DNA of 64,000 nucleotides. Origin: Gemmatimonadales bacterium (lineage in GTDB: Bacteria; Gemmatimonadota; Gemmatimonadetes; Palauibacterales; Palauibacteraceae). The stretch's first letter is position 1, and the number at the start of each line of letters is the position of its first letter. The notes under the pieces are model-generated. The model saw nothing but the letters and a program-made list of their open reading frames with translations. It did no database searches and was not told where the DNA came from. Positions 1,251 to 40,912 of this stretch are shown here, piece by piece. The stretch spans positions 1-64,000 of the forward strand of contig VXQX01000051.1 in the NCBI GenBank assembly GCA_009838765.1, written 5' to 3'. A program made the position numbers and the translations under genes.

Positions 1251-1286
1251 TTGTCGCGACACCCGCCGATAATCTAGGTTTGCGGG
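1251..1286 (+). promoter_or_regulatory. Bacteroidota-type promoter (TTG N21 TAGGTTTG)
   Basis: TTGTCGCGA starts at 1251 and TAGGTTTGCGGG lies at 1275-1286. TAGGTTTG fits the -7 element TAnnTTTG known from Bacteroidota, with a TTG -33 element 21 bases upstream. The same two blocks at the same spacing recur at 25468-25503. It would give a leader of roughly 85 bases for the Asp-box protein gene. Confidence 0.6.
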
Positions 1287-1372: not shown

Positions 1373-4300
1373 ATGCGCAAGCTGGCCATCGTCACCCCGA
1401 CCACGCTCACCCTCGCCGCAGCCGTCTTCGGCACGGCGGACCTCGCCGTCGCGCCCCCGGCGCTCGCCGCGCAGGACGCGGTGGTGTTCGACTCCGCCGA
1501 TGTCGCGGGCCTCGGCTTCCGGTCCATCGGGCCGCCTCGTGGCGGGCGCAGCACCGCCGTGGCGGGGATCACCGAGCAGCCGCTGACCTACTTCATGGGC
1601 GCGACCGGCGGCGGCGTGTGGCGCACGGACGACGCCGGCCTCAACTGGCGCAACATCTCCGACGGCTACATCGGGACGGGGGCCATCGGGTCGATCGACG
1701 TGGCGGACAGCGACGCGAACGTCATCTACGTGGGCACGGGCTCGTCCTGCATCCGCGGCAACATCTCGAAGGGAATCGGCCTCTACCGCAGCACCAACGG
1801 CGGCGACTCGTGGACCCACATCGGGCTCCCGAACTCGGGCCAGATCGGCGACATCCAGGTCCACCCGCACGATGCCGACATCGCTTTTGTGGCGGCGCTC
1901 GGCGATCCCTTCGGCCCCAACCCGGAGCGCGGCGTGTTCCGCACGACGGACGGCGGCGACACGTGGGACCACGTCCTGGCGATCTCCGACTCCACGGGCG
2001 CCGTGGACCTCGCGATCAACCCGTCGAATCCGCGCATCGTCTTCGCCTCGGCGTGGCGGGCCGAGCGGAAGCCCTGGACTGCGACGTCGGGTTCGGAGGA
2101 GTCCGGCGTCTTCCGGTCGACCGATGGCGGGGACACGTGGGACCGGCTCGAGGGCGGGCTCCCCACCGGCCTCGTCGGCAAGTCCGCCGTCACCGTCTCC
2201 CGGGCGAACCCCGATCGCGTGTGGGTGCTCATCGAGGCGTCCGACGACCGCGGCGGCGTCTACCGCTCCGAGGACGGCGGCGACACCTGGCGGCGGGTGA
2301 ACAGCGACCGCGGACTCCTGCAGCGGGCGTGGTACTACACGCACATCTACGCGGACCCGGTGGACGAGAACACGGTCTACGCCCTCAACGTGGGCTACAA
2401 CAAGTCGGTCGACGGGGGCGTGACGTGGCAGAGCTACGGCGTCCCGCACGGGGACGTGCACGACCTCTGGATCAACTACGAGAACCCCGACTTCCAGGTC
2501 GTGGCGAACGACGGCGGCGGCCAGGTGACGACGACCGGCGCGGAGAGCTGGTCCACCTACTACAACCAGGTCACGGCCGAGATGTACCGGGTGTTCGTCG
2601 ACAACCAGTTCCCCTACCGGGTGTACGGCTCGCAGCAGGACAACTCCACGATCATGGTGCCGAGCCGCGGGATGCCGGCGGTCCAGCAGGCGCAGCACTG
2701 GGCCGCGGTCGGGGGCTGCGAGAGCGGCCACATCGCGATCGACCCGCGGAACCCCAACGTGACGTACGCGGGCTGCTACGGCGGCAGCATCAACCGAGTG
2801 GACCGCGAGACGGGCGACGTGCGGCAGATGCTCCTCTATCCGCAGCTCCAGCTGGGACAGGCGCCGAAGACGATGAAGCACCGCTTCCAGTGGAACGCGC
2901 CGATCCGGATTTCCCCGCACAACCCCGACGTCATCTATCACACGTCCCAGTTCGTGAACCGGACATCGGACGCCGGATACTCGTGGGAGACGATCAGCCC
3001 CGACCTCACGCGCAACGACACGACGAAGATGGAGCACGCGGGCGGGCGCATCACGTGGGACAACACCGGGGTGGAGATGTACGGGACGGTCTTCGCCTTC
3101 GAGGAGTCGCCGCACGAGGCAGGGGTCCTGTGGGCGGGCTCGGACGACGGCCTCATCCACGTGTCGCGGGACGACGGGGCGAGCTGGATGGACGTGACGC
3201 CGGGCGACCTGCCGGAGTTCTCGACCGTCAACATGATCGACCTCTCGGCGCACGGCCCGGGGCGGGCGCACGTCGCCGTCTACCGCTACCGGATGCAGGA
3301 CGTCACACCCTACATGTGGCGCACGGACGACTACGGGGAGAGCTGGACGCGCCTCTCGGCGAACGGGATCGAACCCGGCCACTTCGTGCGCGTCGTGCGG
3401 GAGGACCCGGTGCGGGAGGGGCTCCTCTACGCGGGCACCGAGTTCGGGCTCTACGTGAGCTTCGATGGCGGCGACAACTGGCAGCGCTTCCAGCAGAACC
3501 TGCCGATCACGCCGATCACGGACATGCTCGTGCACGAGGGCGACCTCGTCATGGGGACGCAGGGCCGCTCGTTCTGGATCCTCGACGACGTGACGCCGCT
3601 GCGGACGATGTCGGCGGCCACGCTGGCGTCCGATGTCCACCTCTACACGCCGCGCGAGGCGGTGCGCGCGCAGGGCGTCTTCCCCAACGGGGCGTCGATC
3701 TACTTCGCGCTCGGCGAGGGGATGGAGGAAACGATCGACCTCGAGATCGTAGATGCGGGGGGCGAGGTCGTGCGGGTCTACTCCTCGAATCCCGGTTCGT
3801 GGGACGATGAGGCGAAGGCGGCGATCGGGCGCGCGTCGAGCTGGTCGCCCGACCGCCTGCAGACGAGCGCGGGCCTGAACCGAATGGTGTGGAATCTGCA
3901 GGAAGAAGGGCCCGACCTCGTCCAGGGCGCCCGGATCTGGGGCTTCACGGGTCGCGTGCCCGCCGTCCCCGGGCGCTATGAGGTGCGTCTGACGGCTGGC
4001 GAGGCGACGCAGACGCAGCCTCTGGCGGTCCACATCGACCCGCGGGTGGCCGACCAGGTCACGGTCGCGGACCTGCAGCAGCAGCACGACCTGATGGTCC
4101 GGGTGCGCGGTCTTCTGCAGCAGTCGCACGACGCCGTGCGCGAGGCGCGGTCGATCCGGTCGCAGATGGGCGACATCGCGGAGTCCGTGGAGGAGGCCGG
4201 CTATGGCGATGACTTCGCCGAGATGGCGGACGCCGCAGGGGAGAAGCTCACGGACGTGGAGGAGGAACTCTTCCAGACGAGGAACCGGTCAGGGCAGGAC

Positions 4301-4546
4301 ATGCTCAACTTCCCGCCCATGCTCGACAACGAGATCGCCAACCTGTACGGCTACATCGCGTCCACCTACGACCGGCCGAACGCGGTGGCGGCCGTCCGCG
4401 CCGCCGAACTGGAGGCCGAACTCGGCGGGTGGCTGGGGACCCTCCAGCAGATCATCGACACGGACGTGGCGGAGTTCAACAACCGCCTGCGCGAGGCCGG
4501 CGTCCCCGGCGTCATCGTGCGCACGCCGCCGCGCGCCACGAGCTGA
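1373..4546 (+). CDS. Secreted Asp-box (BNR/sortilin-like) beta-propeller protein
   Basis: This 1,057-residue protein starts at an ATG preceded by AGGAGCGAGAG at a good distance and opens with a signal peptide ending near PPALAAQD. About ten Asp-box motifs (S/T-x-D-x-G-x-x-W, for example STNGGDSW, RSTDGGDTW, SVDGGVTW, SFDGGDNW) are spread over residues 65-700, which predicts one or two beta-propellers of the VPS10/sialidase-like type. The last 350 residues carry a beta-rich segment and then a helical tail. Such proteins are common in secretomes of Gemmatimonadota and Bacteroidota and are usually annotated as glycosyl hydrolases, but no catalytic residues can be assigned here. An in-frame ATG at 1343 exists but lacks a ribosome binding site and would bury the signal peptide. 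Confidence 0.85.
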   Translation: MRKLAIVTPTTLTLAAAVFGTADLAVAPPALAAQDAVVFDSADVAGLGFRSIGPPRGGRSTAVAGITEQPLTYFMGATGGGVWRTDDAGLNWRNISDGYIGTGAIGSIDVADSDANVIYVGTGSSCIRGNISKGIGLYRSTNGGDSWTHIGLPNSGQIGDIQVHPHDADIAFVAALGDPFGPNPERGVFRTTDGGDTWDHVLAISDSTGAVDLAINPSNPRIVFASAWRAERKPWTATSGSEESGVFRSTDGGDTWDRLEGGLPTGLVGKSAVTVSRANPDRVWVLIEASDDRGGVYRSEDGGDTWRRVNSDRGLLQRAWYYTHIYADPVDENTVYALNVGYNKSVDGGVTWQSYGVPHGDVHDLWINYENPDFQVVANDGGGQVTTTGAESWSTYYNQVTAEMYRVFVDNQFPYRVYGSQQDNSTIMVPSRGMPAVQQAQHWAAVGGCESGHIAIDPRNPNVTYAGCYGGSINRVDRETGDVRQMLLYPQLQLGQAPKTMKHRFQWNAPIRISPHNPDVIYHTSQFVNRTSDAGYSWETISPDLTRNDTTKMEHAGGRITWDNTGVEMYGTVFAFEESPHEAGVLWAGSDDGLIHVSRDDGASWMDVTPGDLPEFSTVNMIDLSAHGPGRAHVAVYRYRMQDVTPYMWRTDDYGESWTRLSANGIEPGHFVRVVREDPVREGLLYAGTEFGLYVSFDGGDNWQRFQQNLPITPITDMLVHEGDLVMGTQGRSFWILDDVTPLRTMSAATLASDVHLYTPREAVRAQGVFPNGASIYFALGEGMEETIDLEIVDAGGEVVRVYSSNPGSWDDEAKAAIGRASSWSPDRLQTSAGLNRMVWNLQEEGPDLVQGARIWGFTGRVPAVPGRYEVRLTAGEATQTQPLAVHIDPRVADQVTVADLQQQHDLMVRVRGLLQQSHDAVREARSIRSQMGDIAESVEEAGYGDDFAEMADAAGEKLTDVEEELFQTRNRSGQDMLNFPPMLDNEIANLYGYIASTYDRPNAVAAVRAAELEAELGGWLGTLQQIIDTDVAEFNNRLREAGVPGVIVRTPPRATS

Positions 4547-7222: not shown

Positions 7223-7957
7223 CTACCCGCCTTCGCGGTCGCGCAGGTCGGCCAGCGCGTCGGTGCCGATCGCGTCCCGAAGCTCGTGGAGTTCGTCGAT
7301 CGTCAGGTTCCGTCCCTCCAGGGAAACGACGAAACGATCCTCGATGAACCAGGTGAACTCCGCGCGGCCGCGGTCGTCGCGCGTGCGGCGGAACTCCTCG
7401 ATCGCCGGATAGCCCTCGTACTCAATCGTGCGTTCCCACCCCCGGTCGCTCTCCTGGTCGACCGAGAGATCGAGCCACTCCACGAAGCCCTCCGAGCCGA
7501 TCACCGGAAGCGCGCCGATGTCGGCGATGGAGACATCGACCTCGGCCCCGCCCCTCCCCTCGTACTCGGCCTCGGCCACCGAGACGCGGAACCCGAAAGC
7601 TCCGCCCGTCGCCCCCTCGCGCGAGGTCCGCCTCAGGTTCCCCGCCCGCTCGGGCAGAAAATCGTAGAATTCGCGGAAGTGGATCGGGTTGGCGACCAGC
7701 GCGTCGCCGCTCAGATCCTCGGCGAAGTCGGACATGTGCTCGCCGATCTCCTCCACCGCGTCGGTGATGCTGGCCGCGATGTCGTCGGCGGCGTCGCGCA
7801 GATCCTCCCGCACTTCCTCCCGCACTTCCTCGGCTTCAGCCCGAGACTCGTTGTCGCCGACGAAGATGCAGCCCGCCGACGTGAGGCCGCAGAACAGGGC
7901 GCCCGCGAGGGCGATCCGCCGCGAGGGACGGCCGACAGAGTGGCGTTTCCGGAACAT
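7223..7957 (-). CDS. Hypothetical lipoprotein
   Basis: This 244-residue protein has a basic N-terminus, a hydrophobic stretch and a lipobox ending SAGC (Cys30). Residues 35-85 are acidic and helical (EEVREEVREDLRDAADDI), likely a coiled coil, and the rest looks beta-rich with no family I recognise. It starts at an ATG with GGAGGAAAGAG just upstream. It lies tail to tail with the protease gene (29 bases between stops) and divergent from the glycoside hydrolase gene. Probably a periplasmic or outer-membrane lipoprotein; function unknown. Confidence 0.7.
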   Translation of the reverse strand: MFRKRHSVGRPSRRIALAGALFCGLTSAGCIFVGDNESRAEAEEVREEVREDLRDAADDIAASITDAVEEIGEHMSDFAEDLSGDALVANPIHFREFYDFLPERAGNLRRTSREGATGGAFGFRVSVAEAEYEGRGGAEVDVSIADIGALPVIGSEGFVEWLDLSVDQESDRGWERTIEYEGYPAIEEFRRTRDDRGRAEFTWFIEDRFVVSLEGRNLTIDELHELRDAIGTDALADLRDREGG

Positions 7958-8137
7958 CTCTTTCCTCCAGACGCTGAACGCAGGGTTTAGGGGCCTGTGC
8001 GCGCCTACGCGCCTCGCCGGAAGGAAGTGTCAGTCCGCGGGCCCGAGGCGTCGCGCGCCGGGGCCAGACCGGTGAGGCGCCGGGGCGGGACCCCTCCGGC
8101 CGTTGACCGACGACCCGGGTGGTTCGATGCTGTTGCC

Positions 8138-10459
8138 ATGAACCGCCCCCCGTCCCGTCCCGCCGTTTCTCCGAAGGCTCGCATCGCGGCGCTGGCTCGC
8201 GATGACAAGTGGTTCCTCGGGGGGATGGACGGCGTGGTGTGGGCGCCGCCGTTCCCGCAGTGGCTGCACCGGCCGGGGTTCTGGGATCCGGTTCACCTCC
8301 TGCAGCACGAGGTCGGCCCGGGATTCTCGGTGGCTCTCGTACGCTCCGGCGGGCCGGAATGCCCCCTCCGCAGGGCGGGCGGCGGCCCGCGCGGCCGGGA
8401 ACCGACGACGCGGCGGTGGCGGCCCGGCAGGCTGGTCGCCCGGTGGCTGGACGAGCGGGACGCGATCGTCGAGGAGCACCGCCAGGTGCTGCCGGGCGGC
8501 ATCCTGGAATCGGCCTGGGACATCCCGCGCGACTTCGATGGCCACCTCGTCGCCTTCACCGCGCAACCCGCCGGCGAGACCGAACGCGCGGAACCCACGG
8601 CGGCCGGAGTGGGCTGGATGCGGGCGATCCCGGACCGGGGCGGGCAGGAGATGGTCCTGCGCATGGAACTCACGGGCTCCGTCTCGCCGGCGTGGCGGCG
8701 GATCGCGCCTTCCGAGGGGCGCGCCGCGCCCGAATGGCGGCACTCACCCTTCGCGGAGGAGGTCGGCGGCACCGAGAACGCCGCGGGCGCGGGCGCCGAC
8801 CCCGGATCCGGCCCGCCCCACGATCCGGACGCCGACCCGGGCTCCCACCGTACGGGATGGATCTGGATCGCCCTCGCGCTTCCGCTGATGGGGATCGACG
8901 GCAACGGGCCGCCGGCCATTCGGCTGAAGCTCCGCCTCCGGGAGACCGAGTCTCGGCGTCCGGCCGCCAAGCCATCGATTCCTTCGGCTCCGACGTCCTC
9001 GACGCCCCCGCCGGACGAGATCCCGGCGACCTCCGCCTGGGAGTCCTTCTTCGGCGGTTTTCCGCGTTTCGAGAGCGGGGATCCCTATCTCGACCGCACC
9101 TTCGACTACCGCATCTACGGTCTCGGCCTGAACCGCATCGAGGGTGCGTGGGGGCCGGTGCGGCACCCCGCGATCGCCGAGGGCCCGGAGTACTTCCACG
9201 TGCCGATCGCCTACAGCGCGCAATGCCACATGATGGAGATGCGCTGGCGGAGGGGCGGTCGCGAGGCGTGGGGATCGCTCCTGAACTTCGTCGACAATCA
9301 GAAGCCGAACGGGTCCTTCCACGGGCGCCTCTATCCCGGGCGCCTCGATGGAACCGACTTCTACCACTCCAACTGGGGCGACGCGCTGCTCGCCGTCGAC
9401 GACATGCACCCCGATGCGGCGGCGCTGGCCCGCTGCTACGAGGGACTGTCGCGCTACGCCCGCTGGCTGACGGCGGAGCGCGACCCCGAGGCGTCGGGGA
9501 TGTTCACCGTCACGAACCATTTCGAGACGGGCCAGGAATACATGTCGCGCTACATGGCCGTGGACGGTGAGGCCGACGTGGCGGGATGGAATCCCCGACT
9601 CCGGCTCAAGGGGATCGACGTCACGGTCTACGCGCACCAGTTGTTTCGCGCCCTCGCCTCCGTGGCGCGCCGCTTGGAGCGGCCGGGTGACGAGGCCGAA
9701 TGGCGCGGGCTCGAGGCTGGTTGCCGGAGGGCGATCGATGAGCGCATGTGGTCGGCGGACGCTCGGTTGTTCACGGACGTGGACGGACGCACCGGCGAAC
9801 GGACCGGCGTGAAGGCGGCGGTGGGGTTCTACCCGCTGCTCACCGGGGGAGTAGACGGCGCGCGGCTCGATGCCCTGCTCGATCACCTCGAGGACCCTGA
9901 GACGTTCGGCACGCGCTTCCCCCTGCCGTCGTCGAGCGTGGACGACCCGCGGTTTTCGGCGGAGGGCGTCTGGCGCGGGAAGCGCCGCAACTGCCCGTGG
10001 AACGGACGTGTATGGCCGATGACGACGAGCCACGTGATCGAAGGGCTGCTGCGCTGCTGGCGCGGCGGGAAGGCGCGGGCGGGCGCGCGGGCGGCCGACA
10101 TGCTCCACCGCTTCGCGCGCATGATGTTCACCGATGGCGATCCCTCGCGCCCCAACTGTTTCGAGCACTACAACCCGCACACGGGGCGCGCCTGCCACTT
10201 CCGGGGGATCGACGACTACCAGCACTCGTGGATCCTCGACCTGCTGGCGCGCGGATTCGGCGGGCTTCACGTAGACGCGGCGGGCGTCGAGGTGCGGCCG
10301 CTGCCGAACGGTCCCGCGCGCGTGTCGCTGGGACCGGTCATCGCGCGGGGGCGCACGGTGTCCGTCGAGGTGGCGCCCCAACGGGTGAGCCTGGAGGTGG
10401 ACGGCGAGCGGTTCGACGGACCGCGCGGCGAACCTCTGCGGGTGTCATGGGTCTCGTGA
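8138..10459 (+). CDS. MGH1/GH63-like glycoside hydrolase
   Basis: The 773-residue product has an N-terminal beta-rich half and a C-terminal (alpha/alpha)6-barrel-like half from about residue 300, with motifs of the trehalase/mannosylglycerate hydrolase/GH63 superfamily such as WESFFGGFP, FHVPIAYSAQ, FYHSNWGD and CPWNGRVWPM. No signal peptide is evident from this ATG, so it is probably cytoplasmic and acts on an imported oligosaccharide. The 13-base overlap with the transporter ATPase gene couples the two. Upstream in-frame codons exist back to 7997 but are rich in Arg/Gly and look non-coding. The exact substrate is not predictable; a second, diverged paralogue lies at 16654. Confidence 0.78.
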   Translation: MNRPPSRPAVSPKARIAALARDDKWFLGGMDGVVWAPPFPQWLHRPGFWDPVHLLQHEVGPGFSVALVRSGGPECPLRRAGGGPRGREPTTRRWRPGRLVARWLDERDAIVEEHRQVLPGGILESAWDIPRDFDGHLVAFTAQPAGETERAEPTAAGVGWMRAIPDRGGQEMVLRMELTGSVSPAWRRIAPSEGRAAPEWRHSPFAEEVGGTENAAGAGADPGSGPPHDPDADPGSHRTGWIWIALALPLMGIDGNGPPAIRLKLRLRETESRRPAAKPSIPSAPTSSTPPPDEIPATSAWESFFGGFPRFESGDPYLDRTFDYRIYGLGLNRIEGAWGPVRHPAIAEGPEYFHVPIAYSAQCHMMEMRWRRGGREAWGSLLNFVDNQKPNGSFHGRLYPGRLDGTDFYHSNWGDALLAVDDMHPDAAALARCYEGLSRYARWLTAERDPEASGMFTVTNHFETGQEYMSRYMAVDGEADVAGWNPRLRLKGIDVTVYAHQLFRALASVARRLERPGDEAEWRGLEAGCRRAIDERMWSADARLFTDVDGRTGERTGVKAAVGFYPLLTGGVDGARLDALLDHLEDPETFGTRFPLPSSSVDDPRFSAEGVWRGKRRNCPWNGRVWPMTTSHVIEGLLRCWRGGKARAGARAADMLHRFARMMFTDGDPSRPNCFEHYNPHTGRACHFRGIDDYQHSWILDLLARGFGGLHVDAAGVEVRPLPNGPARVSLGPVIARGRTVSVEVAPQRVSLEVDGERFDGPRGEPLRVSWVS

Positions 10460-24049: not shown

Positions 24050-25335
24050 ACGGGCGTCGCTTCCTCCGTCGCGAGCGCCACGCCCTCTTCTTCATCCACG
24101 CGCAGCAGGAGCAGCAGCCCGGCGGCGAGGAACACGAGGATGGAGGCGATGGCCCAGCGGTGGCTGCCCGTGGCGCCGAGGATGAGCCCGTAGGAGAGCG
24201 GCCCCAGGGCGGAGGAAAGCCGGCCGGAGAAGGCGTAGAAGCCGAACAGTTCGCCCTGCTTGTTCTCGGGCACGAACGAACCCAGGAGCGCGCGGCTCCC
24301 CGCCTGATTCGGCCCGACCATCAGCCCGAGGAGTATGGCCGCGGCCCAGAACATGGGGAGATCCCTCGCGGACCACGCCAGCACGATCGCCACCATCAGC
24401 AGGACGAGCGTGATGGCGATCGTGCGCTTCCCGCCGATCCGGTCCTGGACGAACCCGAAGCCGATCGCGCTCGCGCCGGCCGCCAGGTTCACGACGATGC
24501 CGAGGATGAGGAGGTCGGCTGTCTCCATCCCGAACTCGACCCCGGCGAAGATCGCCGCCATGGCGAAGGCGGTCGCGAGCCCATCGTTGTAGACGAGACG
24601 CGCCACGAGGAGGCGGACGGCCTGGCGATAGCGCCTCAGGTCCCGGGCTGTGTTCGCGATGCGGCCGAAGCCCATCCGAACGCAGGTGGCGAGCGGCGCG
24701 CGGCGGCGGGGCTGCCGCTCCCGAAGGAAGAGAAAGACCGGAATCGAGAACACGAGCAGCCAGCCGGCGGCGAGGAGGCTCGTGGACCGCACGTTCAGCC
24801 CTCCGTCCTCCGGCAGCCAGCCGCTGACCATGCCGAGCGCCGGCACGAGGCAGAGGAGGCCGCCGAAGTACCCGAGGCCCCAGCCCAGCCCGGAAATCCG
24901 TCCCATGTTCTCCCGTGTCGAGATCTCGGGAAGGAACGCGTTGGCGAGCGACTGCATGGACTCGTAGGCGACACTGGCCCCGATGAATACGAGCGCCGCC
25001 ATCCAGGCATCTCCCGGCCCCATGCCGAAGAGGCCCGCGGTCAGGGCGACACAGACGATCGTCGCGATGAGCAGAAACCGCTTCTTGAGGCCGCCGAAGT
25101 CCCCCATCGCGCCCACCACCGGCATGATGAGCGCGGTCGTGACCGCCGAGACGGTGACCGCCCATGTCCACCAGACGCCACCCAGGTCGGGATCGGGAGC
25201 GATCGACAGCGCAAAGTACGCCGAGAAGATGAACGTGACGACGATCGTCCCGAAGGCCGAGTGGGCGAAGTCGTACAGCGCCCAGGAGACGATCTCCCGG
25301 CGGACGACGGGCGGGGGTTGAGGAGTCGAGTTCAC
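24046..25335 (-). CDS. MFS transporter, UMF1/Atg22-like
   Basis: This 429-residue membrane protein has about 12 TM segments and the opening REIVSWALYDFAHSAFGT, characteristic of the UMF1 (Atg22-like) MFS family. Loops show GAMGDFGGLKKR and FGFVQDRIGGKR, typical MFS A-type motifs. The start is a GTG at 25335; no ATG is available between it and the conserved N-terminus. Its stop shares CTAG with the convergent DUF5107 gene. The substrate is unknown; the family includes amino acid and sugar efflux candidates. Confidence 0.85.
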   Translation of the reverse strand: MNSTPQPPPVVRREIVSWALYDFAHSAFGTIVVTFIFSAYFALSIAPDPDLGGVWWTWAVTVSAVTTALIMPVVGAMGDFGGLKKRFLLIATIVCVALTAGLFGMGPGDAWMAALVFIGASVAYESMQSLANAFLPEISTRENMGRISGLGWGLGYFGGLLCLVPALGMVSGWLPEDGGLNVRSTSLLAAGWLLVFSIPVFLFLRERQPRRRAPLATCVRMGFGRIANTARDLRRYRQAVRLLVARLVYNDGLATAFAMAAIFAGVEFGMETADLLILGIVVNLAAGASAIGFGFVQDRIGGKRTIAITLVLLMVAIVLAWSARDLPMFWAAAILLGLMVGPNQAGSRALLGSFVPENKQGELFGFYAFSGRLSSALGPLSYGLILGATGSHRWAIASILVFLAAGLLLLLRVDEEEGVALATEEATPV

Positions 25336-25466: not shown

Positions 25467-25503
25467 TTTGTCGCGAACGCGTGGCGCGGGGTAGGTTTGC
25501 GGG
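25467..25503 (+). promoter_or_regulatory. Bacteroidota-type promoter (TTTG N21 TAGGTTTG)
   Basis: TTTG at 25467-25470 and TAGGTTTG at 25492-25499 are separated by 21 bases, matching the -33/-7 promoter layout of Bacteroidota. Blocks TTGTCGCGA and TAGGTTTGCGGG are identical to those at 1251-1286, with identical spacing. It would drive the acyl-CoA dehydrogenase gene with a leader of about 65 bases. Confidence 0.62.
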
Positions 25504-25572: not shown

Positions 25573-29460
<3,888 letters not shown>

Positions 29461-29463
29461 CCG

Positions 29464-40140: not shown

Positions 40141-40877
40141 GCGTGCGCGCCCTCCGTCATCCCCGTCATTCCCGTCATCTCCGTCATCATCTCCGTGAAC
40201 TGCCCGGCGAGTGCGGGACCCACGCCGGCGTCCTCGTGCTTGAAGAAGGCGTAGACCCGGCCCCAGCCGGAGGCGCGCAACCGCTCGGACCAGGCTTCCA
40301 GCTCTTCCGTGGAGTACGCGCTCCGCCGCAGCCGGAGGTAGCTCCAGTCCGCCGTCTCGACGAGAGGCGCATCATCTCCGTCGTCCGTCTCGGCGAGGCA
40401 GAGGGCGGAGTTCCGGGCCCGGAGGATGTCGAACACCGCCTCGTCGAACCACGAGGCGTGCCGGAACTCGAACGCCGACGTGCCGGGGTTCGGAAGCTGA
40501 TCCACGAAACGCGCGAGCCGTTCATCGTCCCGCTTGAAGTTGGGCGGAAGCTGGTACAGGATGACGCCCGCGCGATCCGCCATCACCGACGCCGTCTGCA
40601 CGAGATACTCCGTCTCCTCTTCCGCGTTCTGCAACCGCTTGAAGTGCGTGATGCGGCGCGAAGCCTTGAGCGCGAAGCGGAACCCGTCGGGCACCGCTCC
40701 GGCCCAGTTCTCGAGCACGCTCTCGCGCGGCATGCGGTAGAACGTGTTGTTGATTTCGACGGCCCGCAGGCGGCTGCCGTAGAAGGACAACATCTCCCTG
40801 TTGGGGAGATCCTCCGGGTAGAAGCTGCCTTTCCACGCGGGATAGCTGTAGCCGCTCGTGCCGATCCAGACCTGCAT
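40137..40877 (-). CDS. DUF72 (YecE-like) TIM-barrel protein
   Basis: The 246-residue product has the DUF72 marks WIGTSGYSYPAWKGSFYP, INNTFYRMP, FALKASRRITH, VILYQLPPNF and FEFRHASWF. The biochemical role of the family is not settled. The start was placed at ATG 40877, where the conserved N-terminus begins. The C-terminus ends in a short run of Met-Thr repeats coded by an 8-10 bp DNA microrepeat (40150-40195). It is coupled to the rhomboid gene. Confidence 0.9.
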   Translation of the reverse strand: MQVWIGTSGYSYPAWKGSFYPEDLPNREMLSFYGSRLRAVEINNTFYRMPRESVLENWAGAVPDGFRFALKASRRITHFKRLQNAEEETEYLVQTASVMADRAGVILYQLPPNFKRDDERLARFVDQLPNPGTSAFEFRHASWFDEAVFDILRARNSALCLAETDDGDDAPLVETADWSYLRLRRSAYSTEELEAWSERLRASGWGRVYAFFKHEDAGVGPALAGQFTEMMTEMTGMTGMTEGAHA

Positions 40878-40881
40878 GGCC

Positions 40882-40912
40882 GGATGATACGGCCCCGCGG
40901 TCGGCGGGCCAA
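40882..40912 (-). promoter_or_regulatory. Candidate leaderless promoter for DUF72 gene
   Basis: On the minus strand TTG (40912-40910), 20 bases, TATCATCC (40889-40882). Transcription would begin at about the ATG (40877), implying a leaderless message. The -7 box has several mismatches to TAnnTTTG. Confidence 0.3.

Follow-up and report, generated by a model that had tools for sequence, protein, structure and literature searches.

Two matched upstream sites in a Gemmatimonadota genome are probably sigma70-family promoters that resemble the Bacteroidota box

Two sites that carry the letters TAnnTTTG in a stretch of Gemmatimonadales DNA of 64,000 nucleotides (hereinafter, the window; 70.6% G+C) are, in all likelihood, ordinary promoters of the sigma70 family, read by the RNA polymerase of the lineage itself. 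In each promoter, a -35 element TTGTCG, which belongs to the TTGnC type, and a -10 element TAGGTT would stand 18 bp apart. Transcription would probably start about 7 bp past the hexamer, and these inferred start points would give leaders of approximately 70-85 bases to the start codons. The TG that follows TAGGTT and the flanking TCGCGA and CGGG would represent a resemblance at the level of species or clade and not a defining element. A promoter function is likely because both sites are conserved 5' of orthologous genes within the genus. The sequence-only reading had also taken the sites for promoters, and both their position and the TTG/TAnnTT core are indeed kept across the genus.

The canonical sigma70/sigma-A promoter combines a -35 element TTGACA, a spacer of 16-18 bp and a -10 element TATAAT. 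Both sites contain TTGTC at -35, their 18-bp spacer falls within this range, and TAGGTT supplies T-12, A-11 and T-7. They differ from the canonical promoter in the GC-rich interior (GG) of the -10 element, which departs from TATAAT.

The two sites and the genes downstream

The window holds two exact copies of the pattern TTGTCGCGA-N15-TAGGTTTGCGGG (1251-1286 and 25468-25503), both on the plus strand and with the starts of the two elements 24 bases apart, as had been noticed previously; it is not found in 100 dinucleotide shuffles of the window. A relaxed form, TTGTCGNNA-N15-TANNTTTGNNGG, retrieves only this pair from the genome (3.60 Mb in 96 contigs, 95% complete) and nothing in the reversed control, and TTG-N21-TANNTTTG occurs five times genome-wide and once in the reversed control. 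The count of TANNTTTG by itself is unremarkable (two in the window versus 0.92 expected) because 27 of 100 shuffles reach at least two; what is notable is that both copies lie in gaps 5' of genes. Pfam matches agree with the earlier assignment of these genes to an Asp-box protein and an acyl-CoA dehydrogenase (Table 1).

Table 1. Elements of the two putative promoters, the downstream genes and a comparator site in the window
Feature	Position	Strand	Observation
-35 element TTGTCG, Asp-box gene promoter	1251..1256	+	TTGTCGC in 8/8 aligned genus members, spacer varying; fits the lineage TTGnC
-10 element TAGGTT, Asp-box gene promoter	1275..1280	+	TA[GC]GTT in 8/8 genus members; 18-bp spacer from TTGTCG
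Asp-box / Sortilin-Vps10/BNR-like protein gene	1373..4546	+	Pfam PF15902 and PF13088 above cut-off; PF02012 slightly below
-35 element TTGTCG, acyl-CoA dehydrogenase promoter	25468..25473	+	TTG at equal spacing (one base shorter in G012) in 16/16 same-genus orthologues
-10 element TAGGTT, then TGCGGG, acyl-CoA dehydrogenase promoter	25492..25497	+	TAG[GC]TT in 15/16 same-genus orthologues; TAACCT in G012
Acyl-CoA dehydrogenase gene	25573..27573	+	Pfam PF02771, PF02770, PF00441
Comparator outside the pair, TTGGCC-N17-TATCAT, 6 bp 5' of ATG 40877, without TTTG	40884..40912	-	Conserved in 8/8 genus members

The start of the Asp-box gene was taken at 1373 in preference to the in-frame ATG at 1343 because three relatives (G003, G011 and G008) have no ATG equivalent to the latter. 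Across the eight aligned genus members, TTGTCGC and TA[GC]GTT[TG]G are constant and the intervening spacer is variable; constant ends around a variable spacer are what is expected of a bipartite promoter, such as this site is predicted to be. The TG at 1281-1282, 3' of TAGGTT, completes the TAnnTTTG look-alike, and base 1281, the seventh of the box, is T in two rows and G in six, with TAnnTTTG present in 2/8. TCGCGA is likewise found in two of the eight rows.

The acyl-CoA dehydrogenase shows 90-94% identity to proteins of Candidatus Palauibacter rhopaloidicola, Ca. P. denitrificans, Ca. P. poriticola and other Gemmatimonadetes/Gemmatimonadales, which places the genome near Candidatus Palauibacter in Gemmatimonadota and not in Bacteroidota. 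Its locus was sought in 35 genomes, five of which do not have it, and 30 upstream regions (16 from the same genus and 14 from other genera) were compared. All 16 same-genus loci contain TTG-N20/21-TAnnnT 5' of the gene (antisense, 1/16), TTGTCGCGA is intact in 13 of them, and TAnnTTTG in nine. The three loci in which TTGTCGCGA is altered (G013, G004 and G012) are the most distant same-genus orthologues, and there TTG-N20/21-TAnnnT stays while TCGCGA and TTTG are gone: G013 and G004 retain TTG-N21-TAGGTT, with TTCT or TTGC replacing TTTG, and G012 has, unlike the other orthologues, TTG-N20-TAACCT immediately 5' of a candidate ATG. Among the orthologues of the two genes, TTGG, TTGA, TTGC or TTCT is frequent instead of TTTG. 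The conservation of the acyl-CoA site is a result for the genus, since only three of the 14 other-genus regions contain TTG-N19..22-TA...T (antisense, one).

The neighboring divergent gene (start at 25335, minus strand) has TACCCTTG upstream, with TACCCT located 45-46 bp 5' of the start in 8/8 genus members. Because TACCCT is kept, the gap 5' of the acyl-CoA dehydrogenase gene may contain two diverging promoters.

A promoter model for the genus

Promoter-like patterns were surveyed in 1,202,596 bases of the genome, the window included, with gene starts from a home-made gene caller and the opposite strand as the control. In 270 co-directional upstream regions, TTG-N19/20/21-TA...T was detected 25 times in the sense orientation (the Asp-box site being one of the 25) versus three in antisense, compared with 7 versus 5 for the other spacings from 15 to 24; the enriched classes correspond to hexamer spacers of 16, 17 and 18 bp. 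All 498 upstream regions together yield 53 promoter candidates. Position 5 of the -35 element, which played no part in the selection of candidates, is C in 37 of the 53 versus 42% after any TTG (p = 4.5e-5), and in 35/51 once the two window sites are left out (p = 1.3e-4). T at position 4 is found in 5/53 candidates, two of which are the pair, so that a -35 element TTGT is uncommon; G at -5 gives a weak signal.

Conservation and tRNA genes point in the same direction. A conserved TANNNT is present in 12 of 53 aligned gene families in sense and in three in antisense, which amounts to 10 distinct sense sites, the pair among them, and three antisense sites. By reading of the sequences, TTG-N19/20-TAnnnT is present in four of five tRNA leaders, and a cluster of nine tRNA genes is preceded by TTGACA-N17-TATCCT. 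Furthermore, TANNNT occurs 9-15 bp 5' of the start 22 times in sense versus eight in antisense (852-kb sample with 372 upstream regions), and several conserved TANNNT sit 5-7 bp 5' of an ATG, which suggests that some messages may be leaderless. Two apparent leaderless genes are found in the window itself, with TATCAT and TAGTCT located 6-7 bp 5' of the ATG at 40877 (minus strand) and 50546 (plus strand), respectively, in 8/8 genus members.

The resulting model (TTGnC, 16-18 bp, TAnnnT) is shown for the genus and not for the phylum because G046 (400 kb) gives no clear strand signal (TA...T, 59 versus 66; TTG-N20-TA...T, 4 versus 1) and G045/G044 offer only 45 usable regions (leaderless position, 6 versus 2). 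The power of the survey to yield meaningful negatives is limited since, in E. coli and Cupriavidus controls of 200 kb each, it failed to detect these organisms' own promoters. Among the papers listed in a search of the literature, which covered few subscription journals, there was no mapped promoter set for Gemmatimonadota; this is weak evidence of absence.

Sigma factors of the genome

The genome contains 16 matches to Sigma70_r2 and encodes three short sigma factors of RpoD-like length (L015, L011 and L013). The best candidate for the principal sigma factor is L015, an open frame of 349 aa in which Pfam regions 2, 3 and 4, but neither region 1.1 nor region 1.2, were matched at an E-value of 0.001. 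This choice is inferred from conservation: of 61 genomes from the phylum, 57 encode a protein of this type at an identity of at least 56%, and the remaining four, from another class, reach only 45-46%. Conservation is lower for L011, a second RpoD-like protein, with 54-61% identity in the genomes of the class that have a clear orthologue and a match of only 48% in G015. A Pfam match for region 1.2 is present in L011 and in the Bacteroides protein and absent in L015.

L015 was compared in an alignment with five Bacteroidota sequences (from records labelled plasmids, the Hymenobacter one being a possible paralogue) and with those of E. coli and Paenibacillus; residue positions follow the E. coli sigma numbering, anchored on W433. 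L015 has the Bacteroidota residues L440, Q441, L454 and N455, the corresponding residues of E. coli and Paenibacillus being T, R, V and H; since Prevotella has M440, L440 is shared by four of the five Bacteroidota sequences. At the type-A loci of the best 30 of the 61 genomes (own genome included), L440, L454 and N455 are present in 30/30, whereas position 441 is occupied by Q at 17 loci and by K at 13. L011 shares L440, L454 and N455 with L015 but has S441; L013 has T440, Q441, G454 and G455, and a sigma factor encoded on a Gemmatirosa plasmid has F440, Q441, V454 and H455.

Compared with the primary sigma factor of Bacteroidota (Bacteroides fragilis type), L015 is similar in being short and devoid of region 1.1, in the motif ISYAVWWIRQ, and in the four residues above. 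It differs in having V at 425 for F and S at 458 for G, in having no Pfam match for region 1.2, and in that it apparently serves canonical promoters. Among matches in a plasmid collection, whole-protein identity is 41-43% to Bacteroidota and 41-42% to Paenibacillus and Enterococcus, so that Bacteroidota are not borne out as the closest whole-sequence relatives, identity to them being no higher than to Firmicutes. The five best alignments to solved structures are with SigA chains that have an E. coli-like region 2.4. The suggestion that the sites inform on the polymerase of the lineage thus holds in part: the likely principal sigma factor lacks region 1.1, and in region 2.4/3.0 (region 2.4 having been proposed for inspection) it is Bacteroidota-like at L440, Q441, L454 and N455, but the promoters do not belong to the Bacteroidota type and overall identity is no higher than to Firmicutes.

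The combination of Bacteroidota-like sigma residues, the lack of region 1.1, and canonical TTGnC/TAnnnT promoters, some of them leaderless, could indicate that Gemmatimonadota represent the transcription system of Bacteroidota at an intermediate stage. We consider this rather doubtful, and its odds are lowered by the fact that Bacteroidota do not stand out in overall identity.

An unlikely explanation of the pair itself is that it is served by L011 (a 313-aa frame) or another alternative sigma factor and constitutes a small regulon. The 16 Sigma70_r2 matches would provide candidates, and the uncommon -35 TTGT, two of whose five occurrences are the pair, is compatible with this explanation. However, the core is the same as in the tRNA-type promoters and, with up to three mismatches, the 36-base pattern has no members beyond the two orthologous sets in the own genome and 16 same-genus genomes. 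Among 60 genomes, the own included, 13 contain a match: the own genome, 10 of the 16 same-genus genomes, and G044 and G045 with a single match each; the reversed control gives one match, in G031.

Comparison with the Bacteroidota promoter

The sequence-only reading had assigned the sites to the TAnnTTTG promoters of Bacteroidota. A study of Flavobacterium johnsoniae describes the Bacteroidota promoter as -33/-7 elements TTTG/TANNTTTG and revises the latter to TAHHTTTG for this species, in whose -7 boxes G hardly ever occurs at -10 and -9 (PMC6847099); TAnnTTTG and TANNTTTGY are given as the Bacteroidota box in two other papers (PMC9723704, PMC12632263). The letters TAnnTTTG with a TTG upstream are present at both window sites, but both (TAGGTTTG) have GG at -10/-9, a combination that the Flavobacterium consensus TAHHTTTG excludes (PMC6847099). 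Moreover, the sites have a clear -35 hexamer with C at position 5, and TTTG is lost in many of the orthologues.

The survey shows that TAnnTTTG is not the consensus of this genome. Only 4/53 promoter candidates contain it, TANNTTTG is found in 6 of 498 upstream regions in sense versus 5 in antisense, and TAHHTTTG in none versus one. The same count gives 29/81 versus 15 in a Prevotella control, a record of 38.5% G+C that is not composition-matched, 7/89 versus 2 in E. coli, 0/73 versus 0 in Cupriavidus and 3/171 versus 2 in G046.

Two further signals were considered. All eight occurrences of TANNTTTG in the 852-kb sample are intergenic, versus 243/1110 for permuted motifs, which could reflect a real preference; comparison motifs behave similarly (TAnnTTAT, 8/8; TAnnTTGG, 16/19), and a preference for TAnnTT[TG]G deduced from the intergenic share was set aside as confounded by codon usage. 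T at -8 appears to exceed base composition (20/53, p = 1e-4; without the two sites 18/51, p = 6e-4), but a Bacteroidota-like preference vanishes in the comparison with the other strand (81/274 sense versus 67/223 antisense TANNNT).

Taken together, recognition of TTTG/TAnnTTTG by the RNA polymerase of this lineage, in the way known from Bacteroides and Flavobacterium, is very improbable. The exact box at both sites, its intergenic location, and a sigma factor without region 1.1 in which Q441, L454 and N455 agree with 5/5 Bacteroidota sequences would favor such recognition; the rarity of the box among candidates and upstream regions, the GG, the C at -35 position 5, the strand control for T at -8 and the similar identity of the sigma factor to Bacteroidota and Firmicutes all argue against it.

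Similarity of the two sites to each other

A common regulator had been suggested by the outer bases that the two sites share. The pair is identical in 22 of 36 bases, 21 of which form identical blocks of 9 and 12. The candidates with this spacing number 19 and make 171 pairs, which have on average 15.6 of 36 bases in common (sd 2.7). The window pair exceeds this average by 2.4 sd; one other pair shares 22 bases and one shares 25. For the best pair (25/36), and not for the window pair, a column model gives P = 0.0017 per pair. Compared with similar promoters, the outer bases of the pair do not stand out; the impression of a special match comes from its arrangement in two blocks and from its having been picked out after it was seen.

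The least probable reading, that a regulator binds TTGTCGCGA as a shared operator and co-controls both genes, could invoke a 10-bp palindrome at the first site (TGTCGCGACA, by reading), the identical blocks at equal spacing within one window and the retention of TTGTCGC by close relatives in the two gene families, but the palindrome is absent at the second site, the genome holds two copies only, and little is left for this reading, which was rejected, because TCGCGA is replaced in the three distant acyl-CoA orthologues, and kept in only two Asp-box rows, and because the 22/36 identity is equalled or exceeded by other pairs.

Other elements in the window

A TPP riboswitch (Rfam RF00059, 59.4 bits) is located at 29364-29462 on the minus strand, upstream of a minus-strand gene with a called start at 29300. 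At 7957-8138, a divergent gene pair has the block GGCGCGTAGGCGCGCACAGG, which is retained in six aligned relatives, with a single base changed in G008 and G014.

Implications

The probable interpretation of the two sites as sigma70-family promoters corrects the conclusion that a match to TAnnTTTG implies a promoter system of the Bacteroidota type. It also provides an uncultured genus of Gemmatimonadota with a promoter model to work from (TTGnC, 16-18 bp, TAnnnT). If Gemmatimonadota do represent an intermediate stage, the sigma residues shared with Bacteroidota would be insufficient to impose TAnnTTTG. A sigma factor that is partly Bacteroidota-like and apparently functions with canonical promoters would be a natural comparison for defining the residues that set the Bacteroidota specificity.
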